64,000 nucleotides of DNA, from NCBI RefSeq assembly GCF_964019385.1, contig NC_088644.1, positions 36,959,647 to 37,023,646 of the forward strand, given 5' to 3'. Each line of letters begins with the position of its first letter. The stretch's first letter is position 1. The DNA is from Sycon ciliatum. Lineage: Eukaryota > Porifera > Calcarea > Leucosolenida > Sycettidae. Both the position numbers and the translations under genes were made by a program. Under the pieces are notes generated by a model that saw nothing but the letters and a program-made list of their open reading frames with translations, ran no database searches and was not told where the DNA came from. Shown here one piece after another: positions 13,043 through 59,205 of this stretch.

Positions 13043-14068
13043 ATGGAGGACAGTACTGCGCTCGTTTCTGCCGTTTCCTCGGCCGTGCAGGGTTTGTTGG
13101 GCCCGCTGGAGGATCGGCTCAGCGCCCTTGAGGCTTCATTGCAGAGTCGCCGAACTGGTCCAGCGGACAGTTCGGCACCGACTCCGGGCACTTCAGCCAG
13201 CATGTCTGGTGAAGCTGACCCTACAGACTCTTCGAGTGGGCAGGTCCCATCGAACGAGGTTGTGGACGAGCCGAAGCATGCTTCGGTGACTCCCGAGATT
13301 GCAGAATTCCTGGAGAAGGAATTTAGAGTTGGTCTGAAGACCAAGGACCGGAAGGAGATCCTGGACAGGTTTCCCCGGCCAAACACCGAGGTAGCTGTGA
13401 CCCCGAAAATGGATTCGGAGCTGTTGGAGTTCCCTGGGCTGGCGTCCTCGTACAAAAAAGGCGTGGACACCAACTTGTTCTCAGTCCAGAGTAGCGTTTT
13501 GGACTGCCTGGGCCCGCTAACCGAACTGTGGATGGAGGCGCAGCGGGCCCTCGATGCTGATTCGGGTCTTGACCCGCAAGCTGTGCTGGAGCTGATACCA
13601 GTTGCACTGCGCCTTTTGGGCAACGCACACCATAAGCTGTCCTCGCAGCGCCGGCATGCTTTTCTGGAGCACCTGGATAAGGGTTTGACTGGCATGGCGG
13701 ATGCCCCTTATTTGCAGGCTGGCACAGCTCTATTTGGGCCAGAGTTTTTGGCCCAAATGCAGGGCAAAGCTGACTCCCAGAAAGCTCTGGCTGATGTGTT
13801 GCGTCGCTACCGTGATGCCCGTGGCGGCACTAAGCCTCGCTCCCACTCAGCTAGTACCTCAGCCGCAACGGGTGGTGGTCAGTTTTTTCGGCGTTCCGGG
13901 ACTGGCAAGTACGGCGGCAGCTCCCGGTATCAGCCCTACCGCAGCCCGTACACCAACACCCCCGCAGGCCGCAGTCCGTATCGCGGCGGCAGCTCTCACT
14001 CCTCTCCGATGTCCCGAGGCGGAGCCTCCAGCCAGTCCAGCTCCCACCGGAAGGGCAGTCGGTCCTAG
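13043..14068 (+). CDS. DIRS ORF1, gag-like protein
   Basis: 341 residues, starting MEDSTALVSAV soon after the left terminal repeat. No conserved enzyme motif. The N-terminal 40 residues could form a helix. A Ser/Gly/Arg/Tyr-rich basic C-terminal third (from about residue 270) would suit nucleic-acid binding. The gag-like role is inferred from its position as first ORF and from the basic tail. The RT ORF begins 30 bases after its stop in another frame. Confidence 0.75.
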   Translation: MEDSTALVSAVSSAVQGLLGPLEDRLSALEASLQSRRTGPADSSAPTPGTSASMSGEADPTDSSSGQVPSNEVVDEPKHASVTPEIAEFLEKEFRVGLKTKDRKEILDRFPRPNTEVAVTPKMDSELLEFPGLASSYKKGVDTNLFSVQSSVLDCLGPLTELWMEAQRALDADSGLDPQAVLELIPVALRLLGNAHHKLSSQRRHAFLEHLDKGLTGMADAPYLQAGTALFGPEFLAQMQGKADSQKALADVLRRYRDARGGTKPRSHSASTSAATGGGQFFRRSGTGKYGGSSRYQPYRSPYTNTPAGRSPYRGGSSHSSPMSRGGASSQSSSHRKGSRS

Positions 14069-14097
14069 AGACCTTCCTCCCGTCAGCTCTACGGGAA

Positions 14098-16217
14098 GTG
14101 GTGCCCGACGAGATCCTCCGCGCCGGGTCTTCATTGCCCTCCTGGCGGATGCCATTCGTGATATCGGCAGAGGAGATGGCCATCCCACACGGGGGTCGGC
14201 TTCGCCATTTTTACGAACGGTGGACGCTGCTGTCGTCCGATCCATGGGTCCTACAGTCAGTTCGTGGGGTCCACCTCGACCTCCTGAGTGTTCCAGTTCA
14301 GTCTACATGGCCTCATCCACGCCCATTGACAGCGGCGGAGACTGCGGCTGTGTCAGAGGAAGTCAGTTCCTTGGTGCAGAAGGAGGCGATTTACGCCCTC
14401 CCCAGCAACACTCCACCCGGTTGGGTCAGCTCCATCTTCGTGGTTCCGAAGGCTGGTGGGAAGCTGCGCCCGGTGGTCGACTTGCGGGCCCTGAACGGAT
14501 ATGTCCCGTATCATCATTTCAAGATGGAGGGCATCGGCACCCTCCGGGACTTGCTCCAGCCTGGGGACTTCCTCACCCGGCTGGATCTGAAGGATGCGTA
14601 CCTCACAGTGGCGATGAGGGCCAGCGATCGTCGTTTCCTTCGTTTCAGCTGGCAGGGAGTTCTGTACGAGTTCCGGTCACTCCCATTCGGCCTGTCGTCA
14701 GCCCCCTGGACATTCACCAACTCCTCCATCCGGTGGTGGCGACACTTCGCCAATTCGGAATCCGAGTGATCATCTATTTGGACGATCTGCTCATCCTGGC
14801 GCATTCGTTGCTGGCCGCTCGGGAAGCTACGGCGTCGGTTGTGCACCTGCTCTGCAGCCTCGGCTTTGTAATCAACTTCAGCAAGTCGTGCCTGGTCCCT
14901 TCTCAGGAGATCACGTTTCTGGGTTTCCTGGTGTGTTCGACGACCATGACAATCCAGATCTCACAGGATCCCCGGGACAAGCTTCTGCGGACCTGCCGCC
15001 AGCTACTTCAGGCGGATCGCACAACTGTCCGCGAGGTTGCCAGCGTGGTGGGCATGATGCAGTCAGCGTGGCCGGGAGTGTTGCCAGCACCTCTCCATCT
15101 CCGGGGCTTGCAAGATTTGAAGAATTCCGCTCGCCACGCAGCATTGGCATGGGAGTCTGCTCTGATTCTGAACTCTGCGTCCAAGGAGGATCTCCGCTGG
15201 TGGGTTCGTTTTCTGGACTCCTGGAACGGTCGTCCCGTGAAGGTCGAGTGTCCAGTGCTGACGATTGCCTCGGATGCCTCGTCCCAAGGGGGCGGCGGAG
15301 GTTGGGGCGCAGTCTGCGGGACGCAGACAACGGGTGGTCGTTGGTCTGCCGCGGAATCTCGGCTCCACATCAATGCTCTGGAGCTCCTGGCCGGGACATT
15401 TGCTGTCCAGTGCTTTGCCCGTCATGTCCAGAAGGGTCTTGTGTTGCTTCAGATGGACAATCAGTGTGCTGTCGCGTACGTGAACCGCATGGGCGGCACT
15501 CGGAGCCAGCGGTTGAATTCGCTAGCCGCGGACCTGTGGCACTGGTGCCTGGCCCGCCAAATCACCATTCGTGCCGAGTACATTCCCGGGGCCCTCAATG
15601 TCATAGCCGATTTCTGGTCTCGCAATCACAGTTCCTCAGAGTGGCATCTGCTTCCTCAGGCGTTTGCCTTGCTGAAGACCCGATATGGAGGTTGCCACGT
15701 GGATCTCTTTGCCACTCGGATCAACACGCAGCTACCGGACTTTGTTTCATGGCATCCGGACCCACAGGCGGTGGCGACGGATGCGTTCTCTCAGCCGTGG
15801 CAGGAGATGGACGGGTATGCGTTTCCTCCCTTCTGCCTGATCGGCAAGGTCCTACGGCAGGTTCAGACTCAAGCTGTCCCTCGGTTGCTCCTGGTCACCC
15901 CATTGTGGCGCGGGGCCTCGTGGTTCCCAATGCTGCTCCAGATGGTGTCGGAGGCGCCGACGTTGCTACCACACGACAGGTCCCTGTTGACGGATCCTCT
16001 CGGCAATCCTCACCCATTGATGGCCAATGCCCGCCTCCGCTTGGTCGCGTGGCCCATCTCCGGCATTCCTACTCTATGTCAGGGTTTTCTGCAGCAGTGT
16101 CCGACCTCCTCGTTGCCTCCTGGCGGACCAACACCTCCCGTCACTATGACAGCGCTTGGGCACTGTGGAGTCGCTGGTGTGCGCAGCGGTCGATCGATCC
16201 GCTTCGCCCCGCACTGA
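14098..16217 (+). pseudogene. DIRS reverse transcriptase / RNase H ORF, one frameshift
   Basis: Two open segments, 14098-14720 and 14721-16217, in different frames. They join inside the RT domain between SAPWTFT and HPVVATLRQFGIRVIIYLDD, where DIRS-type proteins are continuous; one base appears missing. RT features: PSNTPPGWVSSIFVVPK, LRPVVDLRALN, LTRLDLKDAYL, SLPFGLSSAP, and the catalytic YLDDLL. RNase H features: TIASDAS, HINALELLA, LQMDNQ, VIADFWSR. A conserved DIRS tail follows (VDLFATR, DAFSQPW, FPP). The enzyme would copy element RNA. The break predicts that this copy cannot make full-length RT unless it is a sequencing error or is recoded. Confidence 0.88.
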
Positions 16218-17032
16218 CTCGTGTTCTCGAGTTCTTGTCCGACCAGTTCCAGGACGGTCGCGCGTTCCGCACTATTTCTGGCTACCGGTCCGCTCTCTCT
16301 ACCATGCTCCCTCCCGTCGACGGCACATCAGTTGGCTCTCACCCTACTGTGGTTCGGCTGCTCCGTGGTGCGTACAATCTCCGCCCGCCTGCGCCTCGCT
16401 ACACCTTCACATGGGATGTTCAGCTGGTGTTGGATTTCTTGCGGTCATGGCCAGATGTGTCCGTTCTCAGTGACAAGCAGCTTACTCTGCGCCTTGCTAT
16501 GCTCCTGGCGCTTTCTGGTGCATATCGTTGTGGCGAGCTTTGTCTGCTCTCAAGTGTCTTTTCCCAGCTCTCCGATGGCTCTGTCCGGCTCCCGCTACTT
16601 GGTACTCGGAAGACCCAGCGTGTTGGTGAGCCTCTGCAGACGGTCCAGGTGTGCCCGTTCTCTGTTGCTGCCCTGTGTCCTGTTCAGCATCTGCTTGAGT
16701 ATGGCCGTCGATCTGCCGTGTGGCGGCTAGATGGCTCTGGTCCTTTGCTGCTCTCGTTTCGTAAGCCGCATAAGCCTGTCTCTTCTCCCACCGTTGCCCG
16801 TTGGTTGAAGGAGGTGCTTGGTCTCGCTGGCATTGATACTGCTCAGTTCTCGGCTCATTCTTCCCGTGGCGCGGCCACATCTGCTGCTGCCCGTGCCGGT
16901 GTCTCTACTGCTGTTATCTTGGCAGCTGCTGATTGGAAGCGTGCTACTACATTTCGCCGCTTCTACTGCCGTGATGTCACCCCGCCGGCTGACTGCTTTA
17001 GTGCTGCGGTTCTGCGCTCTGCTACCGCTTAA
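16076..17032 (+). CDS. DIRS tyrosine recombinase
   Basis: 318 residues from the ATG of MSGFSAAVSDLL. The frame is open further upstream, but inside the RT ORF. An N-terminal SAM-like core-binding part (SWRTNTSRHYDSAWALW) is followed by the catalytic part: arginine in YRCGEL, HSSRGAATSAA supplying the H-x-x-R pair, then ADWKRATTFRRFYCRD with the nucleophilic tyrosine. It replaces the DDE integrase of LTR elements and inserts a circular DNA. It overlaps the RT ORF by 142 bases, usual for this group. All catalytic residues are present. Confidence 0.9.
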   Translation: MSGFSAAVSDLLVASWRTNTSRHYDSAWALWSRWCAQRSIDPLRPALTRVLEFLSDQFQDGRAFRTISGYRSALSTMLPPVDGTSVGSHPTVVRLLRGAYNLRPPAPRYTFTWDVQLVLDFLRSWPDVSVLSDKQLTLRLAMLLALSGAYRCGELCLLSSVFSQLSDGSVRLPLLGTRKTQRVGEPLQTVQVCPFSVAALCPVQHLLEYGRRSAVWRLDGSGPLLLSFRKPHKPVSSPTVARWLKEVLGLAGIDTAQFSAHSSRGAATSAAARAGVSTAVILAAADWKRATTFRRFYCRDVTPPADCFSAAVLRSATA

Positions 17033-18542: not shown

Positions 18543-19634
18543 ATGTTTGGCCGATTTGCTTCGTTGACCCTTGGTGCATTCTGCGTAGGATACACTGCTG
18601 TATCAGTTCTCATTCATCTTGTTCTCTTCGTATATCAGGAGCCAGCCAGTATAGCTCAGTATAAGCCAGTTATAAACGCTGAAGATTCACCCGTATCACA
18701 AGCTGGAGTTTTGCCTACTGATAGCGTGATCGATGGAGGACCGATCCGTGAAGTTGACGTTGATACCGTCCCAACGTTAGATGAATTAATTCCTCATATC
18801 GTACCGTCAGGTGTACAGCCTGGTGGACTGTGGCATCCTCCTGTTGGATCAAAAATTGGATGTGGTGGAAACACGCGCAAGTCTCGAGTAGCCATTCTCA
18901 TACCCTATAGGAATAGGCCTGATCATCTTCCCATTTTTCTCAAATACATCCATCCGTTTATGCAGAGACAGAACCTGGATTATGGCGTATATGTTGTAGA
19001 GCAGGACGATGATCTTGCATTCAACCGTGCTGAGCTGTTTAATGTGGGATTCCTGGAAGCCCAGCTCGACCAGCCCTACTCATGCTATGTATTCCATGAT
19101 GTTGATCATGTGCCATCAGATGATCGCAATAGTTACTGCTGCGGCGACGAGCCACGGCATCTATCAACGAACGTGGACCGGTGGGATTACAAGCTGCTGT
19201 ACGATCAGTTCCTGGGCGGCGTGACGCAGTTCGGCGACTCGCACGTGTATGCCATGAACGGTATGTCCAATGCTTACTGGGGTTGGGGCGGAGAGGATGA
19301 TGACGTGCTGTGCCGGTGGAGAACTATTGGTATGACATTCTCCCGGCCACCGAACAGCTATGGCCGATATCGTACGATTGGATCGCACGGTCACAAGTCA
19401 GCGCCAAAGAACAAGGACCGCTTTGAGATTCTAAAGATGGCAAGATCGCGTATGCTCATCGATGGCTTGAACAGTGTTCGGTATCATTTGGTGAATAAGG
19501 ATCGGCACGCGCTCTACACGCATCTGAAAATAAGGTTAGGCAGTCAGAATGTCACCACTATGATGGTAGAGCCGCCGAAGCGCACTCTGCGCGAGATCCG
19601 TGACAAGACCATACCGCATTGGTCATGTCAGTGA
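18543..19634 (+). CDS. B4GALT: Beta-1,4-galactosyltransferase family, single exon
   Basis: 363 residues. Transfers galactose from UDP-Gal to terminal GlcNAc (or Glc/xylose in other members) in the Golgi. Type II topology: a short cytoplasmic start, a signal anchor at about residues 8-31, a stem to about residue 105, then a family 7 catalytic domain. Visible motifs: VAILIPYRNR (nucleotide binding), FHDVDHVP (the DxD metal site, FSDVD in vertebrates), NAYWGWGGEDDD (acceptor and catalytic loop), then IGSHGHKS where the metal-binding His lies, and DGLNSVRYHL near the end. Length is close to the usual 370-400. The whole gene is one uninterrupted frame, whereas vertebrate paralogues are split; a retrocopy or lineage-specific intron loss is possible. 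The exact paralogue cannot be told. Confidence 0.93.
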   Translation: MFGRFASLTLGAFCVGYTAVSVLIHLVLFVYQEPASIAQYKPVINAEDSPVSQAGVLPTDSVIDGGPIREVDVDTVPTLDELIPHIVPSGVQPGGLWHPPVGSKIGCGGNTRKSRVAILIPYRNRPDHLPIFLKYIHPFMQRQNLDYGVYVVEQDDDLAFNRAELFNVGFLEAQLDQPYSCYVFHDVDHVPSDDRNSYCCGDEPRHLSTNVDRWDYKLLYDQFLGGVTQFGDSHVYAMNGMSNAYWGWGGEDDDVLCRWRTIGMTFSRPPNSYGRYRTIGSHGHKSAPKNKDRFEILKMARSRMLIDGLNSVRYHLVNKDRHALYTHLKIRLGSQNVTTMMVEPPKRTLREIRDKTIPHWSCQ

Positions 19635-26201: not shown

Positions 26202-29200
26202 TTATCTTGCTGTCCGTGCATTGCGACTGCGCTGGCGCCCAGCCACCTCCCATCCATCGCCGTCGCCTCCATCATTGTAGTGATCACCACCCTGACTGCT
26301 CTGCGCTGGTTTGCTTCCCCAGGCACTCGCACCTGCACTGGCCGACTGACGAGTAAGACGCCTCTCATCACTGGCCCCTCTTGATCCTCTCCCTCGTGGC
26401 TTATCTCCTTGCCAGGGAGTGTTATCCACTGGGCGCTGTGAAGAATGATGGCGGCCCCGCCGAGGATATGACTGACCGCGGCCACCTGTGGCTGCGTACT
26501 CATCCTGGCTGGCCGAGCCACCGTGCTGATGGCCTCTACGTCGAGTCTCACTTCGTCCACGATGGTCGTTGGCCGTGCTCACACCACCTGCAATGTCACC
26601 AGCACTCCTGCGCCGGTTGTCGTAAGACCCGCCACGCTGGCGCGTGCTGTGATCCCAGGAGCCCCTGCGGCCACGTCCTCTACCCGGCTGTTGTGTATCT
26701 GTGCCACTGGCACATTGGTTGGCACTGGCGCGTCTTGAAGACATGAGGTCCTCAAGCTGCCCAAGGCGACGGGCAACCGCCTTCGTTATCACATGGGATT
26801 CACCGAGCTTGCTTGAACGTATAGACAGCGATGTGCGTAGTAGCTGCACCGCTTCCTCCTGTGCACATGCATCTCTGGCTGCCAAATGCTTGCCTAGGTG
26901 ATACAGGGTTGTGGCTGTTAGAATGTGCTCTGGTCCCACCGTCTTTCGCCGGATGTCCAGGGCCTGTCGGTATAGCTGTTCTGCTTCTCGAAGTCTGGAC
27001 TCACTCTTGCCATTCAGTAGCAAGCCAGCCAAGTCGTTGAGGATTTCGGCGATGGCCGGGTGCTCGCCGCCATACCATGCTTTCCTGGCTCTGAGAGCAC
27101 CGCGCATGCCCTCCTCGGCCTCCTTTAGTCTGCCCAGGCGAGAGTCACACACGGCAATGTGGTAGAGAACATCAGCCTGGCTTGGCGTGTTGTTGGCCGT
27201 GTCCAGATAGGCCTTGGCTTTCATCAGTAGTGACCAGGCCTCCTGCTGCATGCTGGCAGCGTGTGGGCCAGCGTCCTTGGCCTTCAGGAAGCCGAGTGAG
27301 TCCAGCAAGCGGCCGCGGCGTAACACAAGCTTCGGATCCATTCCGTAGAGGCTATCATCGTCGGCATCATCGAGCACGAACGAGAAGCCAGTGGTACGCA
27401 GAGCCTCACGGAACCAACGCTCTGCTTCGCTGATGTGCAGCTGGAACAGGTTCAACGATGCTAGTTGCTCCTGAACGGAGCTAAGCAGCTCTACCGGGCC
27501 GAGTAAGCGGACACTGTTAAACTCCTGGTGGTCGCCGGTGGTGCACGGCGCATCATCCGTTTCACATCCGTGCACCTCTTGAGCATATTCCATTGCATCC
27601 CGCAGCACATCGGCGGCATCCGTGAACTTCGATGCGGCCGCCAGGAAACGCCCAACCATGCTGGCCAGAAGAGCGTAATAGCGCTGCACAGTGCTCTGGC
27701 GGTCTGCATTGCTGTCTTTAGGACCCCCGCGTGTCAGCAATGCCTTCTCCGTCTCCAGCATAGAGCGATAGGAAGTGAGTTGATCGATACCAGACTTCTC
27801 CAGGGCACGCCAGTAGGTCATCAGATCCAGTCGCAGGCGTCCTTGGTTGTTTTGCCAGTCGACGCAATCCAGAAAGATCGGCGGCTCACACACGGCACGC
27901 TGAAGACCCGCCATGTCACTGGACATCAGACGCTGCCAAGGCAGCTCCTCAGTGCGCCGGATCGAAGGCTTAGTTGCTTGGAAATAATCGGCCAACACGC
28001 GATGCCACACAGCCTTCTTTGCCATCCACGGGTTGTGTGTCTGGAGATCGGCAGCATCCGTCACATCAGCATGCCGTACATCTAGCAGACAGTCAAACAC
28101 TGCCGCACGGAGATGCTGATGGAAGAAACTGAGCATGCCTCCTTGTCGCTCAAACAACGCATCACCGGCGGCCGAGCGGAACGAGGCCCAGTCCAGCGAG
28201 GTCAGTTGTGGGTAGCCACAGGTCTGCAGCGCTACCAGGACTTCGCTGTCCGATAGTCCATGCCGGGACACGGCTAGAAGCTGCAGAGCAGCCGCTACCC
28301 AACCACTTAGCTGGCCAGCAGGTTTAGTTGCTGCTGCATGCACATTGCTGCTTTTGCAGCCGTCTTTTGCAGCTTGAGAGCCATCTGTAGTGGACTGTGA
28401 GTGTGGTATCTGCGATTGAATGCTGTCTTGGCCGTAATCGGTAACCCACCGCTGAATGACCAACGTCCAGAGGTGGCTGGGGGACTTGGCTGCCAGGTAG
28501 TAGCTCAGGCGCTCGCTGACCTTCTCATGCTCGCCGAATATACGCATCTCGTTGGCCAGTGATGCCAGGAAGAATGGCTTGTCGGCCAGCGGAGATGATA
28601 CTACTCTGCTGAGCTGGTCCTCGCTTAGTTGTTTGCAGTGGACAGCGAGATGGCAGCGGACAAGCTGCCGCTTAGCATCGTCATTCTTCAGCAGCGGCAT
28701 CCGAATGACCTGCGTGTCTGGGCGCCGCTTCAGGGCTTTAAACGAGCTGTGATTCTCTCCCGTCGACACCACCATGCAAGACCGCGTCGGCAGTGAGCTT
28801 GGCAGCCAGTCTAGCTCTCCTTCGCCAACGGTTTCACGACTCATCTCCTCCAGGCCATCAAGAATGATGAGGGATCGACCTAGCGCCAGCGCTGCACCGA
28901 AGGCAGCCTTGACACGGCTCAGATCCAGCTGATCCTCATTCTGCTGCTGTCGATCATTGCCGTCAAAGTCCAGAAAGCGCGACCGCAGCTCGGCTATGCA
29001 GTGCAGCATGAAGCCAAGGGGACTTGCACTGCTCGAGCTGCTGCCAACATAATGCGTCACTACGTGTACATCAGGCTCATCAGCACTGATCGCTTTACTC
29101 CAGTTTGCCAGCAGGGCACTCTTGCCGCTGCCTCTCTCGCCGACCAGGATGGCAATGCATGCAGCACGTGACTCCAGTAGCAAGTTGGCCGAAGGACTGC

Positions 29201-30419
29201 TGGGCTTGCCATCACCGCCCTCGCCATCGTTCACGGCTACATGTGTCTCCAGGGCACTCAGGACCGTGTCAAGCTCTGGCGTGGCCACGAATGCCCGGCG
29301 TCTGCTCTCGGCGAAGGCCTCGTGTGCAGCCCACTCGCTGAACAGGTCACTGGCGACTGTGTTTGATTTGCTGATCGTCATGGCTGGACTCAGCTCTGCG
29401 GCCAGCGGAGGATAGACTTCATCAATAATAGCACGCCACTCGCCCATAACCGCATCAGCCAGCTCTTCGTAAGTATTGTACTGGAAAACTGGAAGGCCAG
29501 ATTCTACAATTTTTTGCTTCAGCTGCTGCATGGAAACGGCTGCAAACTCGCTTTCCGCCATAGCGTGCGCCAAGTTGGTGGAATCGGCGAGCTGCGGATT
29601 TCGAAAGTAGAAACGTGCATAGGGGAAACGTTCTCGGAACGCCGCCAGCTCAACTTCCAACGCCGTTATGCTGTAGCTTCTGTACTGTGTGTCCAGCAGC
29701 CACGGGTAGCCGGCCTTTGCAGCTACTCTAAAATTTCTGGCAATCCAATTGTCGGATAGGTCTGCTCCAGGCCCGGGGCCATGGCTACCGGCGTGTTTAT
29801 TGCTAGTACCGCTATTGCCGCCACCACCGTCGGCACTACCACTCTCACCACCTACACCATTGAGAGGCCAGGACGGCGTGGATAGCGTTATCAGATCTGG
29901 TGTATTGGTAGCACCGTGACTGCTGGTCTCCACGGCACCACCGTGTGTGCAAGTCGTGGCAGCTTCTAACGTTACTAGTGATGCGTTGTCGCCGGGTTCT
30001 TCCCCTGCAGCTGGCGGTGGTGGCTGGTGAGACCCGTATCGCTCTCCGATCAGTCCCAGAAAATACGGCCGTGATTTGGCTACATAGTCCAGGCACAGTC
30101 GAATGATATCTCCTGAGCCCGCTTGCTCCTCCGTGATTCCCCAGCGTAAATCCACAGGAGCAAAGTAGGTTCCACGCAAGCGGCAAAGCTGCTCCAGTTT
30201 CGGAAAGACCCGCTTCACTAGAACGTCCCTCTCCTTCTGGAAATCACGGAAAGTGGATGAAACGAAAGGTCGAATCGGCTCTCGCCAACTGAACTGGCGT
30301 TTGGCCACGCTCAGCGAGCGTCGCAGTGGTGGTGGTGGGCGGCTGGAATGACCTGCTGGCTTCTTCCTAGGGCTACCGGGAGCGATAGTCGGCTTGTGTT
30401 CCAAGTTGAATTTGTCCAT
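26202..30419 (-). CDS. TTC41: TTC41-like DUF4062-NACHT-TPR protein, single exon
   Basis: 1,405 residues from the ATG at 30419; the frame is open a little further upstream but without an ATG. Order: basic, Ser/Pro-rich start; DUF4062-like domain at about residues 50-130 (PFVSSTFRDFQKERDVL, YFAPVDLRWGITEEQ, FLGLIGERYGSH); a linker with AGYPWLLDTQYR and LPVFQYNTYEEL; a NACHT-type NTPase with Walker A GERGSGKS near residue 430 and Walker B LIILDGLEEMS near 516; a helical region; tetratricopeptide-like repeats at about 1055-1190 (VLYHIAVCDSRLGRLKEAEEG, EQLYRQALDIRRKTVGPEH); then an RG/RS-rich low-complexity tail from about 1250. Vertebrate TTC41 shares this architecture and the linker motifs; its function is poorly known. 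The RG tail would suit RNA binding, which is inference. No introns interrupt it. Confidence 0.85.
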   Translation of the reverse strand: MDKFNLEHKPTIAPGSPRKKPAGHSSRPPPPLRRSLSVAKRQFSWREPIRPFVSSTFRDFQKERDVLVKRVFPKLEQLCRLRGTYFAPVDLRWGITEEQAGSGDIIRLCLDYVAKSRPYFLGLIGERYGSHQPPPPAAGEEPGDNASLVTLEAATTCTHGGAVETSSHGATNTPDLITLSTPSWPLNGVGGESGSADGGGGNSGTSNKHAGSHGPGPGADLSDNWIARNFRVAAKAGYPWLLDTQYRSYSITALEVELAAFRERFPYARFYFRNPQLADSTNLAHAMAESEFAAVSMQQLKQKIVESGLPVFQYNTYEELADAVMGEWRAIIDEVYPPLAAELSPAMTISKSNTVASDLFSEWAAHEAFAESRRRAFVATPELDTVLSALETHVAVNDGEGGDGKPSSPSANLLLESRAACIAILVGERGSGKSALLANWSKAISADEPDVHVVTHYVGSSSSSASPLGFMLHCIAELRSRFLDFDGNDRQQQNEDQLDLSRVKAAFGAALALGRSLIILDGLEEMSRETVGEGELDWLPSSLPTRSCMVVSTGENHSSFKALKRRPDTQVIRMPLLKNDDAKRQLVRCHLAVHCKQLSEDQLSRVVSSPLADKPFFLASLANEMRIFGEHEKVSERLSYYLAAKSPSHLWTLVIQRWVTDYGQDSIQSQIPHSQSTTDGSQAAKDGCKSSNVHAAATKPAGQLSGWVAAALQLLAVSRHGLSDSEVLVALQTCGYPQLTSLDWASFRSAAGDALFERQGGMLSFFHQHLRAAVFDCLLDVRHADVTDAADLQTHNPWMAKKAVWHRVLADYFQATKPSIRRTEELPWQRLMSSDMAGLQRAVCEPPIFLDCVDWQNNQGRLRLDLMTYWRALEKSGIDQLTSYRSMLETEKALLTRGGPKDSNADRQSTVQRYYALLASMVGRFLAAASKFTDAADVLRDAMEYAQEVHGCETDDAPCTTGDHQEFNSVRLLGPVELLSSVQEQLASLNLFQLHISEAERWFREALRTTGFSFVLDDADDDSLYGMDPKLVLRRGRLLDSLGFLKAKDAGPHAASMQQEAWSLLMKAKAYLDTANNTPSQADVLYHIAVCDSRLGRLKEAEEGMRGALRARKAWYGGEHPAIAEILNDLAGLLLNGKSESRLREAEQLYRQALDIRRKTVGPEHILTATTLYHLGKHLAARDACAQEEAVQLLRTSLSIRSSKLGESHVITKAVARRLGQLEDLMSSRRASANQCASGTDTQQPGRGRGRRGSWDHSTRQRGGSYDNRRRSAGDIAGGVSTANDHRGRSETRRRGHQHGGSASQDEYAATGGRGQSYPRRGRHHSSQRPVDNTPWQGDKPRGRGSRGASDERRLTRQSASAGASAWGSKPAQSSQGGDHYNDGGDGDGWEVAGRQRSRNARTAR

Positions 30420-30428
30420 TGCTGGCAA

Positions 30429-48917: not shown

Positions 48918-49857
48918 TACCACAATCATAAATTTTACCTGCCCTTTGTAATCTGTCTCCCACAGGACATTTCCAAACACAATGGTGAAAATGAACTTTG
49001 ATGTTAGTACACAGTTCAGTTCAACTCTGAGAGTAGTGCTGTCCAAATCATGCCATTACGCGGAAACACAAGGGCTTTCTGCGTCTGAGCAGCTGAATTA
49101 CCTTGGTGACAAACGCTAAAAAGACAAGGACTATAACTGACTGTGGATCTAAAAAAAAATTCTAAAGGTTATGCACTGGGCACTCATGCATTTGGCACCT
49201 GTATCATTATAGGCTGTAGCTAGAGGAGACTGTGATCGCAGTAATGCGAGATTTTTATTTCGGAAGATTTGACGGAGTCATGGCTATGTTCCAGAGTCAA
49301 AAGTGCCGAACTTCGCCAAGGTTAGACTGAAAAATCCCGAGATGTTGAAAGTTATTGAGTTTGCAACTTTGCCGATACCATGGAAACCGTGTGCAGATCT
49401 ACGAGTTACTCAGTACATGTACACATGCACAGTCGTCGCCAACAAAAATCCGGCCAATGCCATGGATACAGTGGTACTGGTATGGTACTATGTAGTATGT
49501 GTTCACCGGCGGTTCTTCATGGTGGCAAGGTGGCATGTACCAGCATGTACAGTACCAGCGCAGAACCGAAGCACCGAACAGTCTGTCCTGCACTCTGCCT
49601 GCTGCAGCCGAGTCGAGCACTCCACTAAGCGAGTGTATGCAGGCCCGGCAGCGGGGCATGTGCCGTGCACTAGGCTAGTACGAGCGGCCGCTGGCAGTGC
49701 ATGCGGCCCATGCACCGTATACAGCTACCGGTAACTAATACTTAGCATAGCATTGGCCGGATTTTTTTGGTGACAACTGTACGTCACAGCTGTTCCCACG
49801 GGGCCATCTAACAATATGGCGGCTTTTGCGACAAATCCCAACAGTATTTAAAACTGT

Positions 49858-50821
49858 AAAATAGAAGAAGAAAACACATGGAAACGAGTTATGAAGCAAC
49901 TATCCACGATGTAACAAGATAATAAGCGGTCAGTACATGCGATAGCAGGGCACAAAACTGACAGGCTACTGAGACATTCAGCGACCTAAGACCTAGCTCC
50001 AACACATCTCCAGTGCGCAAACCAACAGCCTTCCAACTTGGAAGGTTCAAGGTTGGGTAGGACGAAAGAGAGGAAGGTGAGCCCAGCGGAATGTGCACCA
50101 GCTAAGTCCCACGGCAACAAAGAATGCCGACTGTTACGGGACGATGACGAAACCATTTAATAACATGACAACGTGGTCTAACTACAATTCGAAGCAGCAA
50201 AGCAACACACCACCCGACTTGGGTAGGTCAGCAATATCGGAGATGAAGGAAGGGGGAAGCTTTGCGAAAACGAATTGTACAAAAATATATAGAATAAATA
50301 AATTTCACGGTTCGCGTGAGACACGGCTGGAAGCCGAGTTTTCCGCATTCGTCCGTAGGAACGCCACCACCCTATAGGATCAAGGCGCAGATGCAGTGCC
50401 TAAACGGTGGGAGGTGAGTAGATAAGACCCACCACAAAGTGGTCAAAGACCGAAATCCCATTAACTGCATCCATGAATTGTACAAAACCGGACGCCAATA
50501 TCTAACGGTGCTCCTCATGCATGACACTATTGTGGACGAGTTGACTACAATAACAAGTAGTTTCACACGACATAGCTGGTGCACATTTCAGCTGCGCTCC
50601 CCTTCCCCTCTTTCATCCTACCCAACCTTGAACCTTCCAAGTTGGAAGGCTGTTGGTTTGCGCACTGGAGATGTGTTGGAACTAGGTCTTAGGTTGCTGA
50701 ATGTCTCAGTAGCCTGTCAGTTTTGTTCCCTGCCATCGCACGTACTGACCGCTTATTATCTTGTTACATTCGTGGATAGTTGCTTCATCTCTCGTTTCCA
50801 TGTGTTTTCTTCTTCTATTTT
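49858..50821. mobile_element. Large inverted-repeat element with about 250-bp arms
   Basis: 49858-50105 is the near-perfect complement of about 50571-50821; both arms contain aaccttccaagttggaaggc or its complement. The loop carries the 110-bp repeat shared with 20793-20905. Related arms lie at 54622-54985 and a half copy at 25735. This element abuts the 3' side of the RAG1-like relic. Confidence 0.8.
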
Positions 50822-51095
50822 TATTTCATACTGGCTCAGTATCTGAGTTCTATTTTATAATGCGAAGGGAATTATAACACTTTTACATCAAAACCATAAC
50901 AAACCGAATTTTTGTACTTGCTGACACGTTCACGCATCAACGCGTTCTCGATCGCCTCGAAAATATTATGGCGAGGAAAGAGATTGAGAACAAAGGAAAA
51001 ATTATTATTTGAGAGGAGAGAAAAAAAGCTCAAACGAGATGGAAGGCCGAGAATTTCAGATAGGCCAGGAAACAAGATGCAGAGGCACACTTGCT

Positions 51096-54000
51096 TTACT
51101 GCAAGGGTTTCTTCTTCCTGCTGAATGGACGGAGCGACTCGTGTTGTGGGAGAGTTGCAATCAAATGCATCTGTGCAACAGACTTGAGGCGCTACAAGGG
51201 ATTGCGGATGGCCTCGTGGTGTCTCCTCAGCTCGTTGAAGCAGGCGTAAATGCTCTCACTCCCTTGCTCTGCGAGGAGACCAAGACCAATGCCTCCCCGC
51301 GGATGGACAGCACGGCATGCACCTCCAATATGTGCGATTTCAACGTGATGTGGCCGAGCTGCTTGCTGACGACAATATCTCGGCATGCGGCCATAAATGT
51401 CTCGATAAAATAAAGCCTTCTAGCTTGCATATCGTGGCCTCGTCCATAGGCCTGCAGTGGCTGAAGAGGGCAGTGCACTCGCCATACAGGGACATCAGGC
51501 GCTGGCAATCCTCATGATTTCAATTTGCCTCTGGGAGCAGCAGTGGCGCACGAGAAGCTACTGCAGATAAATGGGCTGAGGTTATTTCAGTTGTCACTGC
51601 TGGCTGAAGAGCTATGTGCACATGGTTGCCCACAAAAGCACCTCTGTGGTGTGCTTGCCTATCGATTCCATTGCGTTGGAGAAGTGGCTCGATGCTTTCT
51701 AAACATGGCCCCTCAAACTTTTTGTTCTGTTTTATTGCAGACATTTGGTCGGTAGTGACTGTCTCCGTGCAAGAATGCAGCACGGCATGCATCACTGGTC
51801 TTGTAGATGTTGTGTCAAGCTCTCCACTGTGGCAGCAGGTATGTCAAGCTCAGAAAAGAGAACAATGCACTGGAGTTGCTGCTGCACTAAATGTAGTTGT
51901 TGGGTAACTGCAGAAATCTCCTCATCTGTTTTGCCGCCTTCCGAATGCAGTGAGGATAGCTTTTCAAAGCTGCCAGCATCACCAGCTAATGCTGTAACAG
52001 CAACGACTGCAGGGATGACAGTGGCTGCAGGAACGGCTGCAGGTACGGCAGTGGCAGCAGAACCGCCAGTGTCTGCTGTAGTAGCAACGGCGGCAGGAAC
52101 AGCGGTATCTGCAGCAGCTGTTCTACTGGCAAGCTCAATGTCGAGGACTTTGAGCTCAGCCTGAAAAGCAGTCAGCATCCACGGGAAAATACCCAGATCC
52201 AGATGAAGAGCCGGGATTACAACATTCTCCGCGGGAATGGGTAAGATCACTGGACGGATGCTGTTGTTGTAGTTCTTTGCGTTCTTTGGATATGAGGCAC
52301 TGTTCGTGAATCCAGTGAAATAGGTATACAGAGTTTCTAGTGTTCTGTTGGTAGAATCGGCATCTGGGTTTTGGGGCTGGTGGAATGTCCATATTCTTCT
52401 TCTGACATAGACAGCGTAAGCATGGTCGGGTGCCACTGGACCCTGACAAACTATATGCTTTCGTTTGATATTCATAGCCGCCAAGTAAAAACAACGACTT
52501 GTTCTTCCATGTTGCTGTTGTCTGCAGATCTCTGACCTCATCACGATAGACCCCCAGCGCAGTTTCAAGGTTCGATGTGTCTTGTGCCTCAAAGATGTAA
52601 ATCAGGATAATGTTGAGTAGTGAATTTGGCCGCTGCACATTCGCGATCTGCAGGACGAACTTGAAAGATCCTCCGCCGTGATCACCACCGAGTTTGATCC
52701 ACACCTCATTCTCGGGGATGCATTTGTTGGTACCGGTATGCTGTCCATGCTTATCGTACCAATCAAGGTACACCATGATGATGTCGATGAGGCTTGGAAA
52801 GTACATGATGGGTACAATCTCCATGGTGCCATTTCTTGATGCCATGGGCATGGTCTTGTGCATGAAATGCGGTATTTGGCTGGCAACAAATGCTCTGGCT
52901 TTGCGCTCAGATTCCATCTGCAGCCCAAAGCCACGCAGCCGCAAAGCTACAGCTTTCTGACTCTGTTCCACGGGAGCTCAAGATCGGCTTTCAGTGCTAG
53001 CAGTGAGCCCTCGCCTGAGGCTGTTGGTTTCAAGCCAGCCTCTTTCAGCAGCTCCTCTTCTTCTGCACTGCTCAAACGCTTCAAGCGAGCCACTTCCTGT
53101 ACCCGAGCACCCTCCTGGCCACCTGACGCTATCATCTCGGCTCGCTCCAAAACAGGAGATCTGCGCCGCACAGTCCTTGCGATGGCATCGACAGACGATT
53201 TTTCACACACAGTTGTGTGCGTGAACGTCTGTGGCCTGCCCTGGCCTGGCCTGGCCTGGCCTGGCCTGGCCTGGCCTGGCCTGCCCTGGCTGCCTGTTTT
53301 CACTTGCAGTGTACTATCTTGAACTTTGGCTGTCACAAGATGGCCAGTTAAATTATCGGCCATGAAGCCTTTCAATTTGCTGGGGGAAAGCAGTGAGGAT
53401 GTCAGCAACAACTGTGGATTTGCTGATAGATCCACGAAGAGCTGGTTCATGGAAGTCACAGTGAACGGACCAGTTCTCAAGCGGTTGGCAGAACAGGTCG
53501 CTTGGCTTTGCCAGTTCTGAAGCGTGCGGTGTACGTTGGCAGGCTGGACACTGTGCGCCATTGGTCAGCGCCTGGCATATGCACTTTGTACAAAATACTT
53601 TATAACAACATGGTGACTGCACACCGTTGCTCGGCATGCTGTGGCAGATGTTGCATTGTACTGTGGCTGCTGCACTGCTGTCGGCAAATCTTGACATAGT
53701 CAACTCGCACTCTGCTTGATAGTCAGGTGCAAATATGTCATGCACCTCACTTTCAGGTATGTCCATGCCATTGCTAGATTCACATGCACTGCTACTGCTT
53801 GATGTCATTTTTGCTGCTCCGCTTGCTGTTTTTGTCCGTTTGCTTGGTCGACTACCCTTCGATATTTGTTCACACTTGGTGCAGACTCTGCACTTCACAG
53901 GTTCATGACTCTTCCAACTAAATGTGACCCGTTGTCCACAACCACCGCCACTGGGATTGAACTTTTCTGCGCTCTGTGATCTCTTCAAGACTCTTTGGCA

Positions 54001-54211
54001 AAGAGCACAGATGTATGTTGGGTGGTAGAGTCGTCACTACTAACATCAATACTGAACAGGTTTTCGAGGGCTTCACTGTTGTCAGACACTGGATATCTGG
54101 TCTGTTGGGAACACGCAGTAAATGTTGCGCCTCCAACACGGCATACATGCTGCATATATGCTGCATGGTCCTCCATTTCGTGCAATACGTCACAGATGTG
54201 TATATCTCCCA
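51096..54211 (-). pseudogene. RAG1L: RAG1-like gene, broken (N-terminal zinc region, RING, DDE-type core)
   Basis: The last acceptor-like site (tttgttttcag) precedes 54211; any upstream exon is not identified. Minus-strand segments, in order: HVCRVGGATF, TRYPV and LFSIDV (to about 54025); HPTYICALCQRVLKR, FSWKSHEPVKCRVC, then a RING (CNIC, CCYKVFCTKC, CPAC; 53354-54024); LKADLELPWNRVRKL (to about 52950); MESERKAR, WIKLGGDHGGGSF, LFLLGGYEYQTKAYSLSG and CLRCLC (to about 52370); NRTLETLYTYF, PALHLDLGIFPW; RQAHHRGAFVGNHVH; LGHITLKSHILEVHAV; GLLAEQGSESIYACFNELRR; a stop at 51192-51194; and LKSVAQMHLIATLP to 51096. This follows vertebrate RAG1 from N-terminal zinc region to C-terminal core. Candidate catalytic codons: D 52681-52683, D 52197-52199, E 51255-51257 or 51267-51269. 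At least five frame changes show it is decayed. Whether it was a host gene or a transposase is open. Confidence 0.8.
53236..53290. repeat. Decamer/pentamer tandem repeat (CCTGG / GGCCTGG)
   Basis: ggcctggcct-type units repeated about five times, within the RAG1-like relic between RING and core. It would add Arg-Pro-Gly-Gln-Ala repeats if translated. It probably expanded after decay or sits in a linker. Confidence 0.85.
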
Positions 54212-54286
54212 CTGAAAACAAAAGAAAAGCAAAGGCCCATCGTATTTTTGAGTTCACCATCGTATTCAAAAGAACTTGCGAACATA

Positions 54287-54591
54287 TACCGTATATTCTC
54301 TATTATAAGCACAGGTCTCCATTACTAGTACAGTCTCTAATACTAGCACACTGTGAGCACCTTTCGAAACATTATAAGCACAGTCTCTATTATTAGCACG
54401 GTCTTGGTGGAAATCAATGCTGCATGCATGATATCCAGTATGTATGTCTTCTTGCTCTGTCACGTGTGGATGTATTGGTTGAAAAAATATAAGCACGGTC
54501 TCCAATATAAGCGCGGTCTCCAATATAAGCACAGGGTACAGGGGTGTTGAAAAAATATAAGCACGGCGCTTATAATAGAGAATGTACGGTA
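54287..54591. mobile_element. TACCGTA-clan MITE (ATAAGCACAGTCTC type)
   Basis: Termini taccgtatattctctattat and the complement ending aatagagaatgtacggta. ATAAGCAC(A/G)G(T/G)CTC recurs at least five times. It lies about 75 bases upstream of the RAG1-like relic. Confidence 0.9.
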
Positions 54592-54621
54592 AAAGAAAAC
54601 TTCCTGACTCACCTATATCTC

Positions 54622-54985
54622 ATCGTAAAAATGATTCAATTCGGATGGTAAGCCAATTAAATTATGGTGAAAAAAGAAGGACAATATGTTACGAGTTATG
54701 ACTAACTGTCCACCAACGTAACCAGATCTTATACAGCCAGCGAGTGCGACAAAATGGCACAAAACTGACAAGGAGCTGAGCCTTCCAAGTTGGAAGGTTG
54801 TTGGTTTGCGCCTTGGAGAAGTATTGGAGCTAGGTGTCAGGTCGCCAAATGTCTCAGTACTCCTTGTCAGTTTTGTGCCATTTTGTCGCACTCACTGGCT
54901 GTATAAGATCTGGTTACGTTGGTGGACAGTTAGTCATAACTCGTAACATTATGTCCTTCTTTTTTCATCGTAAAAATGATAAATC
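54622..54985. mobile_element. Inverted-repeat element related to 49858-50821
   Basis: Arms at 54622-54784 and 54853-54985 pair over most of their length (gttacgagttatgactaact with its complement). The centre reads cttccaagttggaaggttgt, as in the large copy. The RAG1-like relic therefore has a member of this family on each side. Confidence 0.8.
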
Positions 54986-54991
54986 TTTGAT

Positions 54992-57867
54992 TTTTGCAAA
55001 ATCAGCGGGTGCCCGCCACCATTAGATGGCCAAAAATCGCTGGCTGAAACAGTCGTGATGTACTCTAGAAATTTTCGGTGCTCAATATTTTCGGTATGAG
55101 GGCAACAGGCTAGGTTAGGTGAACAGAAATTTTCGGTTCAGAGAAGCAGTTCCGTATTGGATTATGTGTGTTAGTGTTTGTTCGGTGTATTGAAATTTTA
55201 GGTATGATACAGACGCACCGAAAGTACCGAAAATAAAAGTACACCGAAAATTTGTGAAATTACAGTACTCGTACACGGCTGTTAGCTGCACTTGGATCGC
55301 GGCAACTTAGTTTTCTGCACGTGAACCATAAAAAATCAATGCATGCTCATGCATAACCAGTCAGCTGGCCTGCTCGCCCACGCATTTGACAGGTAACAAT
55401 TCCATCAAATTTGAGATATCGCTTCGTTCTAAGTCTCAAAACAGTTCTAAAGTCACCAAACCACGCTGGTAATCGATGGCTATTCAATGTTAACATCTTC
55501 AGGAAGACTTCAGCCGTTTCCCGAGAGTTTGGGCATCGTTGCCGTTATTTTTCACGGTGTTCTTCTTCCTCCTGTCTGGAGCTGCAATTGCATCCTGGAA
55601 TTATTTGAAAGGTATTTCGTGCGGGCTGTGGGGGGTTCCAACAGGCATAAACTGACATCGCTATAGGATAACTGGTAACTTTCACCCTTCAAGGAGGTAG
55701 AGCAATGAGAATTTTTTTGTGGCGGTCGTCCAATTTTTGTGGCGGACGTGGCTGTATTTGTGCACTTCCAAGGCTTCCATTCTGCCTGATACTACTCTCT
55801 ACTGTATGGGAATCGTTATTTAGGCACCTGTAGCTGTCTTATTTGGTAGATCTGATGTTTTCAATCACTTGAGACACTTTGTCTAGCCTATTTGTCTTTC
55901 GTTCGTGCCATCTATCAGTTTTGTGGGGTGCCTTAGCCTGTATTTGTGAAGTTCTCGAGTAAAGACCCTAATTCTTGACTGGAGTCACGACTTGAATTGT
56001 AATTGCTGGGCGAGCCCTCGTTCACGCAGTTGTCCTTATCGTAATAGTCAATATCTGCTTGCTGGACGGACTAGCGGCTAGCATAGGGATGACCAAATGG
56101 TCCAAGTGTGTACTAGTACACGATTATTGTTTCCATCATCGTGAAATGAGCGTTGTGGAATTGCAGTCGTCTGCCTTTGGCACTGAGGACATGAGGAGAG
56201 TTGATTGTTACTTCTGCTCAGCAATGAAGCGATCATCAGCTCTCTTTGTCCTAATTATTGAGAGGACATACCGGCATCGCAATCAAGTAAAGATTAGGCA
56301 AACCTCGCCAACCTCCAAAGAGAGTCGAAGGTATTTTCTCCAAATGCAAAGACGATCTTTGTGAGTTTGTGACTTGCATTTGCGTGCATACATGAGCAAG
56401 TCACGGACCACGGCACGTGCGCGGTTACCATGGCATCTTGAACCGACGCCATCTTTCTAAGTTGCCGCTTCTTGACAGCCGTGCGTATGCTTCAACCATT
56501 CACCTGGTGCGTGGGTACATAGAGGTAACGCTTCCATTGCTGTTTTCCGTGCGAAGTCTTTTCGGGAAATAAACGGAATGCTCCTGGCCTATGAAAAGTT
56601 AGGAAGCTTCTGCATTTCGACTTTCGGAATGACTATTGTTTCTTGACTGCTGCCTGTACTGGGTTTGGGAGTCGGCTGAGCAGCCGAACGTTCGGGAAAG
56701 AAACACGCTAGTTGAACGGAAAGAAGCAGTCGAGTCGAAACGTATTTTCGGTAGAACCTCTTTTATGAAAGACTTCAGTTTCTGCTTTGACTGTTCGGCT
56801 GCAGAGGATTCGACGGCGTGAACGATCGAAAGTCGAAAGGCGAAGCATCTAAAAAAATCACTAAATAAAAAGCATATTATCTAGTATTATCTACTGATAC
56901 CCCTGACCAGTGCGTACACACTACAAGACAACCCAAACTCTACAGCACAGGAGAGAATGCAGCGAGCAAAACAATGTTTCTCACCCGCCTCGTCGTTCCC
57001 GTTTCTGGAGTCGACGGTCTGCATAATTACGCCAACCGGCAACCCGCTGTCTTCTGCCTTTTCTGTACTCCTTTTCCGGTTGTGACGACTCGATCAAGTG
57101 GCCGGTCCCTTGCTTAGCAGGAGGTAACACACTCGTTGGTCACATCGCTGACCGCTGGGGCGCTGTCCCTGCTCTCCTCCCGTCGACGGACGACACGTCC
57201 TTCTCCGTAGCGAAGATAGTCTCTTCTCGTGACCACCGACACGTCCACTAATGCCACTATTGTAATACGGACTTCCTCTTTCTTTTCGACACTGTACGTA
57301 CTCCGTAGCAGGTGTCTGCGGCTCCACCAGCAATCCCATCGCTGCCAACAATTGATAGAAAGCTAGTGGGGCACCTCCACAGGAAACCCAACAACAGAAC
57401 ACCAACCATTGTGCAAAGAGAACTCCAGTCTCAAGTCATGAGTCGAAGACAAGAGACTATTCGTTGTCTACAAGTACAACCTGTTTGTGAAAACAGCCAG
57501 TGTTCATGGTGTTACTACGCGCCAAAGCAAGCGCTGTTGAGTGTTGTCTGTTGTACTGTTTGTAGAGTGCAGTGCCAGTGGAACCACATATACATGTAGA
57601 CGTATACTACTGTATACTAGTGTAGCAGCGGGTGCCAGAACAAACATTATTTTACTGGTGCAAACAGCGATTCCTGGACAGATTGGCTGAGGTGTCTGTA
57701 GAGTGTAGATCTACTGACTACTGTGTAAGAAGTATGATTATCACACCTACAGCTACAATGTATCTTGTTCATGTGATAAAACCTCTTTTTCCCCCAGACA
57801 CAATGAACACAATACCACCGGTATACACAACTGCACTTGGGCTAAATTAGTGCCCCCCCCCCCTAAT
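54992..57867. other. About 2.9 kb with no recognised gene
   Basis: Only short frames. A motif tttcggt recurs at 55070-55260 with the complement accgaaa, perhaps a degraded repeat. A frame at 57348-57460 weakly recalls a Tc1 transposase helix-turn-helix, but not convincingly. Confidence 0.35.
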
Positions 57868-59205
57868 AAGTTGGGTTCCAAAACCTGTGGTCAGGCTGCT
57901 GGCAAGACCGTAATCTGTGGTCATCTCGTAGACAACACGCGTAGTCGTGGGCGGAAATTGCTCGGAATACGTCGCATGCAGTCGAGGGGTGCCGCAAGGA
58001 TCCGTCCTCGGCCCCCTCCTGTTCACACTATACATCCGTAACCTTCGATGCTGCTTGCCCCAGCAGGTCACAAACCAGGAATTTGCAGACGACATTGCAA
58101 TTGAAGCCTCGGGCAGTTGCGAACAAGTGTGCTCTTCTCTAAGCACAGCCATCACTGGCCTGTCGCAGTGGTTGGAGGACCGCGGGCTAATGCTGAACCA
58201 AAAGAAAACGCAAGCTCTGTTGATTACCCCAAGAGGCCCAGCCCCTGACACAGATAACATTCGAATTCGCTGTGGGAATGCAGCCCTTGCAGTTGTGGAA
58301 CAAGCGCGGTACCTGGGCGTAATGGTAGATGGGCAGCTCTCCTGGGAGCCTCACGTCAATCACACAATCCAGCAGGTGCGGAAGTCAGTAGGTGCGCTGT
58401 GGCGGAGCCGCCGAAGCCTCACCCTGGCGTCAAAGATCCTGTTTTACAGGTCGATGATCCAGGGTAGGTTGTCGTACGCTTCCAACGCCTTTTATCCGTC
58501 ACTTCAAATTGGCAACATGGAGCCCCTCACACGTCTAACGAAGTGCGCTATCCGCGGCTTCTTCGGTCTGCCACCGTGGTCGCGCACGAGCCCGATCTTT
58601 GAACAGCTCCGCCTCACCACCCTGGAGGACATGTTTAACATTAAGCTCCTCATCTTTGTCCGTCGTTGTCTGTTCTCCCGAGCTAGCTCCCTCTTCACCA
58701 GCTTCTTCGTGAGAGTTACTGGTGACCGCACTCGGGGAGCAGCACATCACCTCGTTCGAGTACCATTTTGGCCCGGTCCTGCGGGTCGAGCGACCATGCA
58801 GTTCATCGGCGCAGTCCTGTGGAACCAGCTCCCGCCTGATCTCCGTTCCGAGCCCAGCCACCTTCAGTTCTGTGCCCTGCTAAAAGCGCATCATGGCTCC
58901 GTTTAAATGCTTTTCGGCTAGTGTGTTTCTGTGGTATAGCGGACTGAAGAATAGTAAACGTGTTTTGCAATATATGTATGAAGCTATTTTGTATATAGTA
59001 TGTTCCCATTCCGTTTTTGCTTTGGTGTAGCCCTGAGGTTGATTGCTTATTTATTTCTACCCTTCCTCTCTCCATACTTCTGTCCCCCCCCCCCCCCCTC
59101 TCTCTCATTCCTTCTGTCGTCCACATGTATCAAAGGAGGCGAAATCGCCTGTTTGTGGTGCGACGTTAAATAAACTTCTACAACAACAACAACAACAACA
59201 ACAAC
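57868..59205 (+). mobile_element. 5'-truncated LINE (non-LTR retrotransposon)
   Basis: The reverse-transcriptase 3' half is followed by about 300 bases of 3' UTR ending ttaaataaacttcta and a (CAA)n tail at 59181-59205. Upstream RT motifs, endonuclease and ORF1 are absent, as expected from 5' truncation. The clade is not certain; the CR1/L2/Jockey side fits the motifs. Confidence 0.85.
57932..58906 (+). pseudogene. LINE reverse transcriptase, C-terminal part
   Basis: Open for about 324 residues after a stop at 57929-57931. Motifs: SRGVPQGSVLGPLLFTLYI (RT block 4), EFADDIAIEA (catalytic FADD), LMLNQKKTQALL, ARYLGVMVDGQLSWEPHV, then the thumb/connection region and a typical LINE end (LWNQLPPDLR). 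The first RT Asp block lies upstream and is missing. Confidence 0.88.

Follow-up and report, generated by a model that had tools for sequence, protein, structure and literature searches.

The locus described here lies in a 64,000-nucleotide stretch of Sycon ciliatum DNA (the window) and is very probably a decayed, non-coding copy of a cut-and-paste DNA transposon of the Chapaev superfamily. Motifs read in the frames of its minus strand follow the order of RAG1, the enzyme responsible for cutting antibody genes, with an N-terminal zinc region, a RING finger and a DDE-type core. The assignment to Chapaev rests on agreement with the published description of that superfamily in the termini (CAC...GTG), the length of the target-site duplications (4 bp) and the protein architecture, with Chapa and RING domains together and a core bearing C(2)C and H(3-4)H.

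The window element

The preliminary description placed a RAG1-like feature at 51096 to 54211 and had it lie in one minus-strand run. Its motifs are present on that strand, in the order it gave and at about those positions, and the real extent of the element is larger, from about 49785 to 55057 (Table 1). The single run stands as to order and falls as to frame, since tblastn with L017, a relative of 1009 aa, finds eight ordered segments between 54176 and 51099 that are spread over frames -1, -2 and -3. One frame change separates the IDV half of the zinc region from the HPT half, and residues 259-306 and 709-799 of L017 have no tblastn counterpart in the window. In Pfam searches, the window frame at 53988-54269 matches PF12560 (RAG1_imp_bd) weakly and under the cut-off (E 0.005), the second segment matches RING model PF13923, also under the cut-off (E 6.3e-5), and the core frame matches DUF1280 over the cut-off (E 4.9e-12).

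Table 1. Parts of the window element, with the matching residues of the relative L017
Feature	Position	Strand	Remarks
Whole decayed element, very probably Chapaev type	49785..55057	-	5273 bp including later insertions; CAC...GTG ends
3' terminal inverted repeat	49785..49824	+	CACAGCTGTT..., inward reading
5' terminal inverted repeat	55018..55057	-	CACGACTGTT..., inward reading
Zinc region (Chapa / RAG1_imp_bd), first half: CRxGG, RYPV, IDVSSDD	54030..54176	-	L017 residues 1-49, tblastn
Zinc region, second half (HPTxxCxxC, WxxHxxxxCxxC), RING finger, C2H2-like start	53431..54024	-	L017 residues 53-258
Linker after zinc part, different frame	52950..53372	-	L017 residues 307-432
Core: first predicted catalytic Asp (GGDHGG), changed GGYEY, CLRC	52375..52938	-	L017 residues 436-626; DUF1280
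Core segment, PALHLDLG	52128..52364	-	L017 residues 630-708
Core segment behind variable insert (GNHVH)	51418..51735	-	L017 residues 800-905
Core segment, H-x4-H motif	51299..51406	-	L017 residues 908-943
C-terminal core, AEQGSES (candidate last catalytic Glu)	51099..51290	-	L017 residues 947-1009

The GGYEYQ block, listed by the preliminary description among the core motifs, is there as sequence; as a family motif it is an altered form of GDYE or GDYD, one of which occupies the GGYEY site in all 14 aligned long-ORF transposases (alignment A1) as well as in eight close relatives. The window copy carries a Gly at the site of the relatives' second predicted catalytic Asp. It encodes no intact protein and could at most be mobilised by its relatives, if its ends still function.

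Terminal motifs facing inward begin at 49785 on the plus strand and at 55057 on the minus strand, with the subterminal sequence GCCATCTAA common to both; looser versions of the terminal motif turn up by chance in the region. The right end is fixed by this motif together with six relatives whose similarity ends at 55057-55059, among which L030 and L031 are neighbouring copies and not independent. The left end rests on the terminal motif, the shared GCCATCTAA and the flank only, because the fetched relatives fall short of it. The flanking bases are ACGT on the left and ATGT on the right, so that a 4-bp duplication agrees at three of four bases. Close relatives are 85-92% identical to the window element (blastn pieces of at least 300 bp).

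Two internal features apparently are nested insertions. One is a palindrome at 54662-54973, with arms of 114 nt at 96% identity, which looks like a later insertion since it lies almost wholly in a stretch missing from the relatives that reach there. The other is an inverted pair at 49858-50108 and 50569-50821 (253 bp, 94%). Five close relatives (L005, L006, L015, L030 and L031) have one internal deletion in common, their alignment skipping from window position 52703 to 53457; since five copies carry it, two of which (L030 and L031) lie next to each other, amplification of a non-autonomous deletion form seems likely. A separate short element at 55274-56483 has inward-facing CACGGCTGT ends between identical 4-bp flanks (CGTA/CGTA); it probably belongs to this transposon group as a non-autonomous member.

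The window holds several further features. At 13043-17029 a reverse transcriptase has beside it, in a neighbouring frame, a domain of the Phage_integrase type (tyrosine recombinase), an arrangement like that of DIRS-like retroelements, and a second reverse transcriptase fragment lies at 57947-58903 (RVT_1, 2.7e-15). The long minus-strand frame at 26205-30428, with DUF4062, NACHT-like and TPR domains, resembles nephrocystin-3 (the NPHP3 TPR and NACHT matches are under the cut-offs), and 18543-19631 contains a galactosyltransferase-like gene (Glyco_transf_7N, 9.3e-40; 7C, 2.5e-22).

Copies in the genome and their transposase

The genome searched comprises 538 Mb in 313 contigs. With the window core frame as query it yielded at least 146 matches, some of them two or three per element. 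The search for intact paralogues proposed in the preliminary description was rewarded, in that 78 of the matches listed fall in frames that run for 950 aa or more with no stop codon, a count that leaves out L009, which holds masked letters. For each of two families three copies were fetched; within a family they share 98.9-99.7% identity across 3.75-3.86 kb, and the similarity breaks off at CAC...GTG ends.

Fifteen elements were fetched with their flanks. Both ends are readable in 13 of these, each beginning with CAC, and exact 4-bp target-site duplications flank 11 (L032, L034, L035, L037, L038, L039, L040, L041, L044, L045 and L046; the 3' end of L041 was chosen with the flank match in view). 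The remaining four show no exact 4-bp duplication: the flanks of L036 agree once shifted by 2 bases, those of L043 agree either over 5 bp or after a one-base shift, the altered 3' end of L033 is next to a flank without a match, and the 3' end of L042 was not found. A duplication of 5 bp, the length reported for RAGL and Transib elements, would fit only L043.

The transposase of the long-ORF relatives is approximately 1000-1050 aa long and is encoded in one uninterrupted frame. It opens with a Chapa zinc region, which is followed by a RING finger and a C2H2-like stretch, and it ends in a DDE-type core that contains the motifs C-x2-C and H-x4-H. All 14 members of alignment A1 match PF12560 at an E value of 0.0079 or better, eight of them clearly over the cut-off and L042 at it. 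A match to zf-RING_2 is seen in 10 of the 14 at E values up to 1, while a RING model exceeds the Pfam cut-off in only 4. DUF1280 (PF06918) is found in every member, always over the cut-off, and in L017 it spans residues 418-575, including the invariant Asp 521. These matches and the span over Asp 521 indicate that DUF1280, a family of unknown function, is probably part of the Chapaev-type transposase core.

Core alignment A2 was read for the 13 sequences that reach the C terminus (L007, which is cut short, was left out). In all 13, D107, D178, C197, C200, H518, H523, E540 and E544 are invariant, so that two Asp, two candidate Glu, the C-x2-C motif and the H-x4-H motif are kept throughout. Comparison of the transposases of L041 and L042 gave a dS of 1.58 and a dN of 0.15, which shows coding constraint in this one pair; dS was saturated in four other pairs. 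In the 11 elements checked for further genes, none had an ATG-started ORF of more than 87 aa outside the transposase frame, a search that a spliced partner would escape.

A homeobox search of the same genome listed 117 matches, only 2 of those at 80 bits or more. A tandem array of NK-like homeoboxes lies at G000:C1:64401823-64600837 (L049-L051, L053, L054, L056-L058 and L063), with eight members closely alike and L063 more diverged. Of 30 fetched loci, 21 were inspected at the homeodomain; many of these look NK-like and none was recognised as Hox. This set points to a non-bilaterian host, probably a sponge. A cox1 search of the genome gave no match.

Relation to RAG1 and alternative readings

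The best PDB hit of a profile of the 14 transposases is RAG1 (3.2e-23), in a continuous match over RAG1 102-380 that covers the zinc region, the RING and the C2H2. This hit, together with PF12560 in 14 of 14 relatives, puts the motif pattern beyond chance. That zinc-finger and RING motifs arose by accident or convergence on an unrelated DDE core is hardly credible. TRAF6, RING2 and further RING proteins also match the profile, as such a reading would have it, but the RAG1 match is unbroken, and the zinc region upstream of the RING by itself (query 4-104) matches RAG1 fragment chain 21wb_A at 1.3e-11. With hhalign, the N-terminal part scores 127 against RAG1, the maximum in 100 shuffles being 21. 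For the N-terminal half, chance motifs were rejected on the profile-PDB match and on these shuffles, and the evidence that this half is homologous to RAG1 is strong for the family.

For the core, a distant link to RAG1 is plausible from motif spacing, weak alignments and the literature. A second colinear RAG1 stretch (881-1005) is weak, at 5.0 bits, and aligns the H-x4-H motif and the last Glu. Aligned by hhalign with the core of mouse RAG1, the family core scores 28.2, a value that 2 of 150 shuffles reach, and in the best such alignment the family's second Asp falls slightly off that of RAG1. The spacing from Asp to Cys (19) and from His to His (5) equals that of mouse RAG1, and that from His to Glu is 21 in A2 (to E544) versus 20; the residues concerned in the mouse protein are D708, C727, H937, H942 and E962. 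A core-only profile run against the PDB gave 10 matches up to an E value of 10, with no RAG1 or Transib among them, and PF12940 (the RAG1 recombinase core) was found in none of the 14 A1 members (nine searched at E up to 0.1 and five at E up to 1). The diverged copy L001 has the sole PF12940 match in the genome, over the cut-off (27.6 bits, 1e-6) and in the C-terminal part only; PF12940 was not found in L077, its closest long-ORF relative. The RAG1 homology claimed by the preliminary description is accordingly borne out for the N-terminal half, where the HMM search that it proposed does return RAG1 for the zinc and RING part, and not for the core alone, which that search assigns to DUF1280 and to no RAG1 chain.

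Under the preliminary description's own reading, the locus would be truly RAG1-like (RAGL/ProtoRAG), that is, a RAG1L gene or a transposon akin to the V(D)J recombinase and accompanied by RAG2L. The zinc region, RING and core in RAG1 order, the best PDB hit and the PF12940 match of L001 speak for this, yet it is very unlikely and was rejected on duplication length, the core search and the lack of a visible partner. The duplications measure 4 bp, against the 5 bp reported for RAGL and Transib, the core-only profile recovers no RAG1, and PF12940 is missing from the A1 members and L077. Neither RAG2 (PF03089) nor RAG2_PHD (PF13341) has a match in the genome, in searches in which no positive control responded, and the 11 elements checked for ORFs offer no unspliced candidate. 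What had been called a RAG1-like locus is instead very probably a defunct copy of a Chapaev-type transposon that is present many times in the genome. Nor do the elements fit Transib, with 4-bp duplications, a zinc region and a RING in place of a 5-bp duplication and a core-only protein. It is also highly improbable that such a transposon has here become a domesticated host gene whose apparent frameshifts are introns. The several frame changes between segments are exon-like, but the relatives encode the same protein in a single uninterrupted frame, the second predicted catalytic Asp is lost in the window copy, and terminal repeats with near-matching flanks still delimit one insertion. One-frame relatives, lost Asp and surviving ends led us to reject a spliced, domesticated gene.

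Probable placement in the Chapaev superfamily and its meaning

Chapaev elements are described as having duplications of 3-4 bp and CAC/GTG ends (PMC4079192). Both are seen here, with CAC...GTG termini in 13 of 15 fetched elements and CAC also at the window ends, and with exact 4-bp duplications in 11 of 15 and three of four bases in the window copy. Kapitonov and Koonin (2015) described the Chapa domain and two Chapaev subgroups with Chapa followed by RING (PMC4411706); the same pair occurs in our family, where, following that paper, Chapa is taken to correspond to the N-terminal part of RAG1, and PF12560 is the model that detects it (14 of 14). PMC12730594 places Chapaev and Transib together with RAG1 on the strength of two motifs, C(2)C and H(3-4)H. 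A DDE core with both is present in 13 of 13 A2 cores, the window copy being without the second D. The elements therefore share with Chapaev the ends, the duplication length, the Chapa zinc domain, the RING and a DDE core with C-x2-C and H-x4-H. They differ in that their host is probably outside the animals named for Chapaev (lancelet, sea anemone, Hydra, Aplysia and others) in the relevant part of PMC4411706. Against the assignment count the 4 of 15 fetched elements without an exact 4-bp duplication, the window flanks that agree at only three of four bases with a left end set by motif and flank alone, the RING over the cut-off in only 4 of 14 transposases, and the core that on its own finds no RAG1 chain.

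RAGL elements have been reported in protostomes, cnidarians and a microalga (PMC7204232, PMC9435367). With RAG1 and RAGL (ProtoRAG) the family shares a homologous N-terminal zinc region, a RING, the C2H2 that follows, the order of core motifs, and the D-to-CxxC and H-to-H spacings; it differs in showing no RAG2L partner, in its 4-bp rather than 5-bp duplication, in a core beyond the reach of a core-only profile search, and in the His-to-Glu distance. Transib elements resemble it in the class of DDE core, in C(2)C and H(3-4)H and in CA...TG ends (PMC12730594), and differ in having 5-bp duplications, as RAGL does, and no identifiable domain besides the core (PMC8355894, PMC4411706). N-RAG-TP of Aplysia is a transposon encoding a protein like the RAG1 N terminus only, a part that is here fused to a DDE core (PMC8355894).

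The transposase would bind the CAC...GTG ends, cut with the D-D-E residues and join the element to its target with a 4-bp stagger, and its RING may have the ubiquitin ligase activity that has been reported for RAG1. Since the Chapa and RING architecture and its bearing on RAG1 have been in print since 2015 (PMC4411706), the elements belong to a known transposon type. That paper has Chapaev distantly related to Transib and argues that the RAG1 layout is ancestral, so the bearing on RAG1 assembly raised in the preliminary description has already been argued. Of the papers found on Chapaev together with Amphimedon or Porifera, none is by its title about sponge Chapaev.

The window copy is a fossil that points to a genome rich in long-ORF transposases sharing the N-terminal half of RAG1. 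Tentatively, we suggest that an early-branching animal, probably a sponge, may carry many near-identical, possibly mobile Chapaev families whose transposase has the whole RAG1 order. If so, this would support the RAG1 layout being one old transposase design and not the late joining of a Transib core and a separate N-terminal element, and it would supply intact proteins for testing the original role of the RAG1 N-terminal half. The relatives could serve for studying what the zinc region and the RING do in transposition, and when the two were joined to the core.
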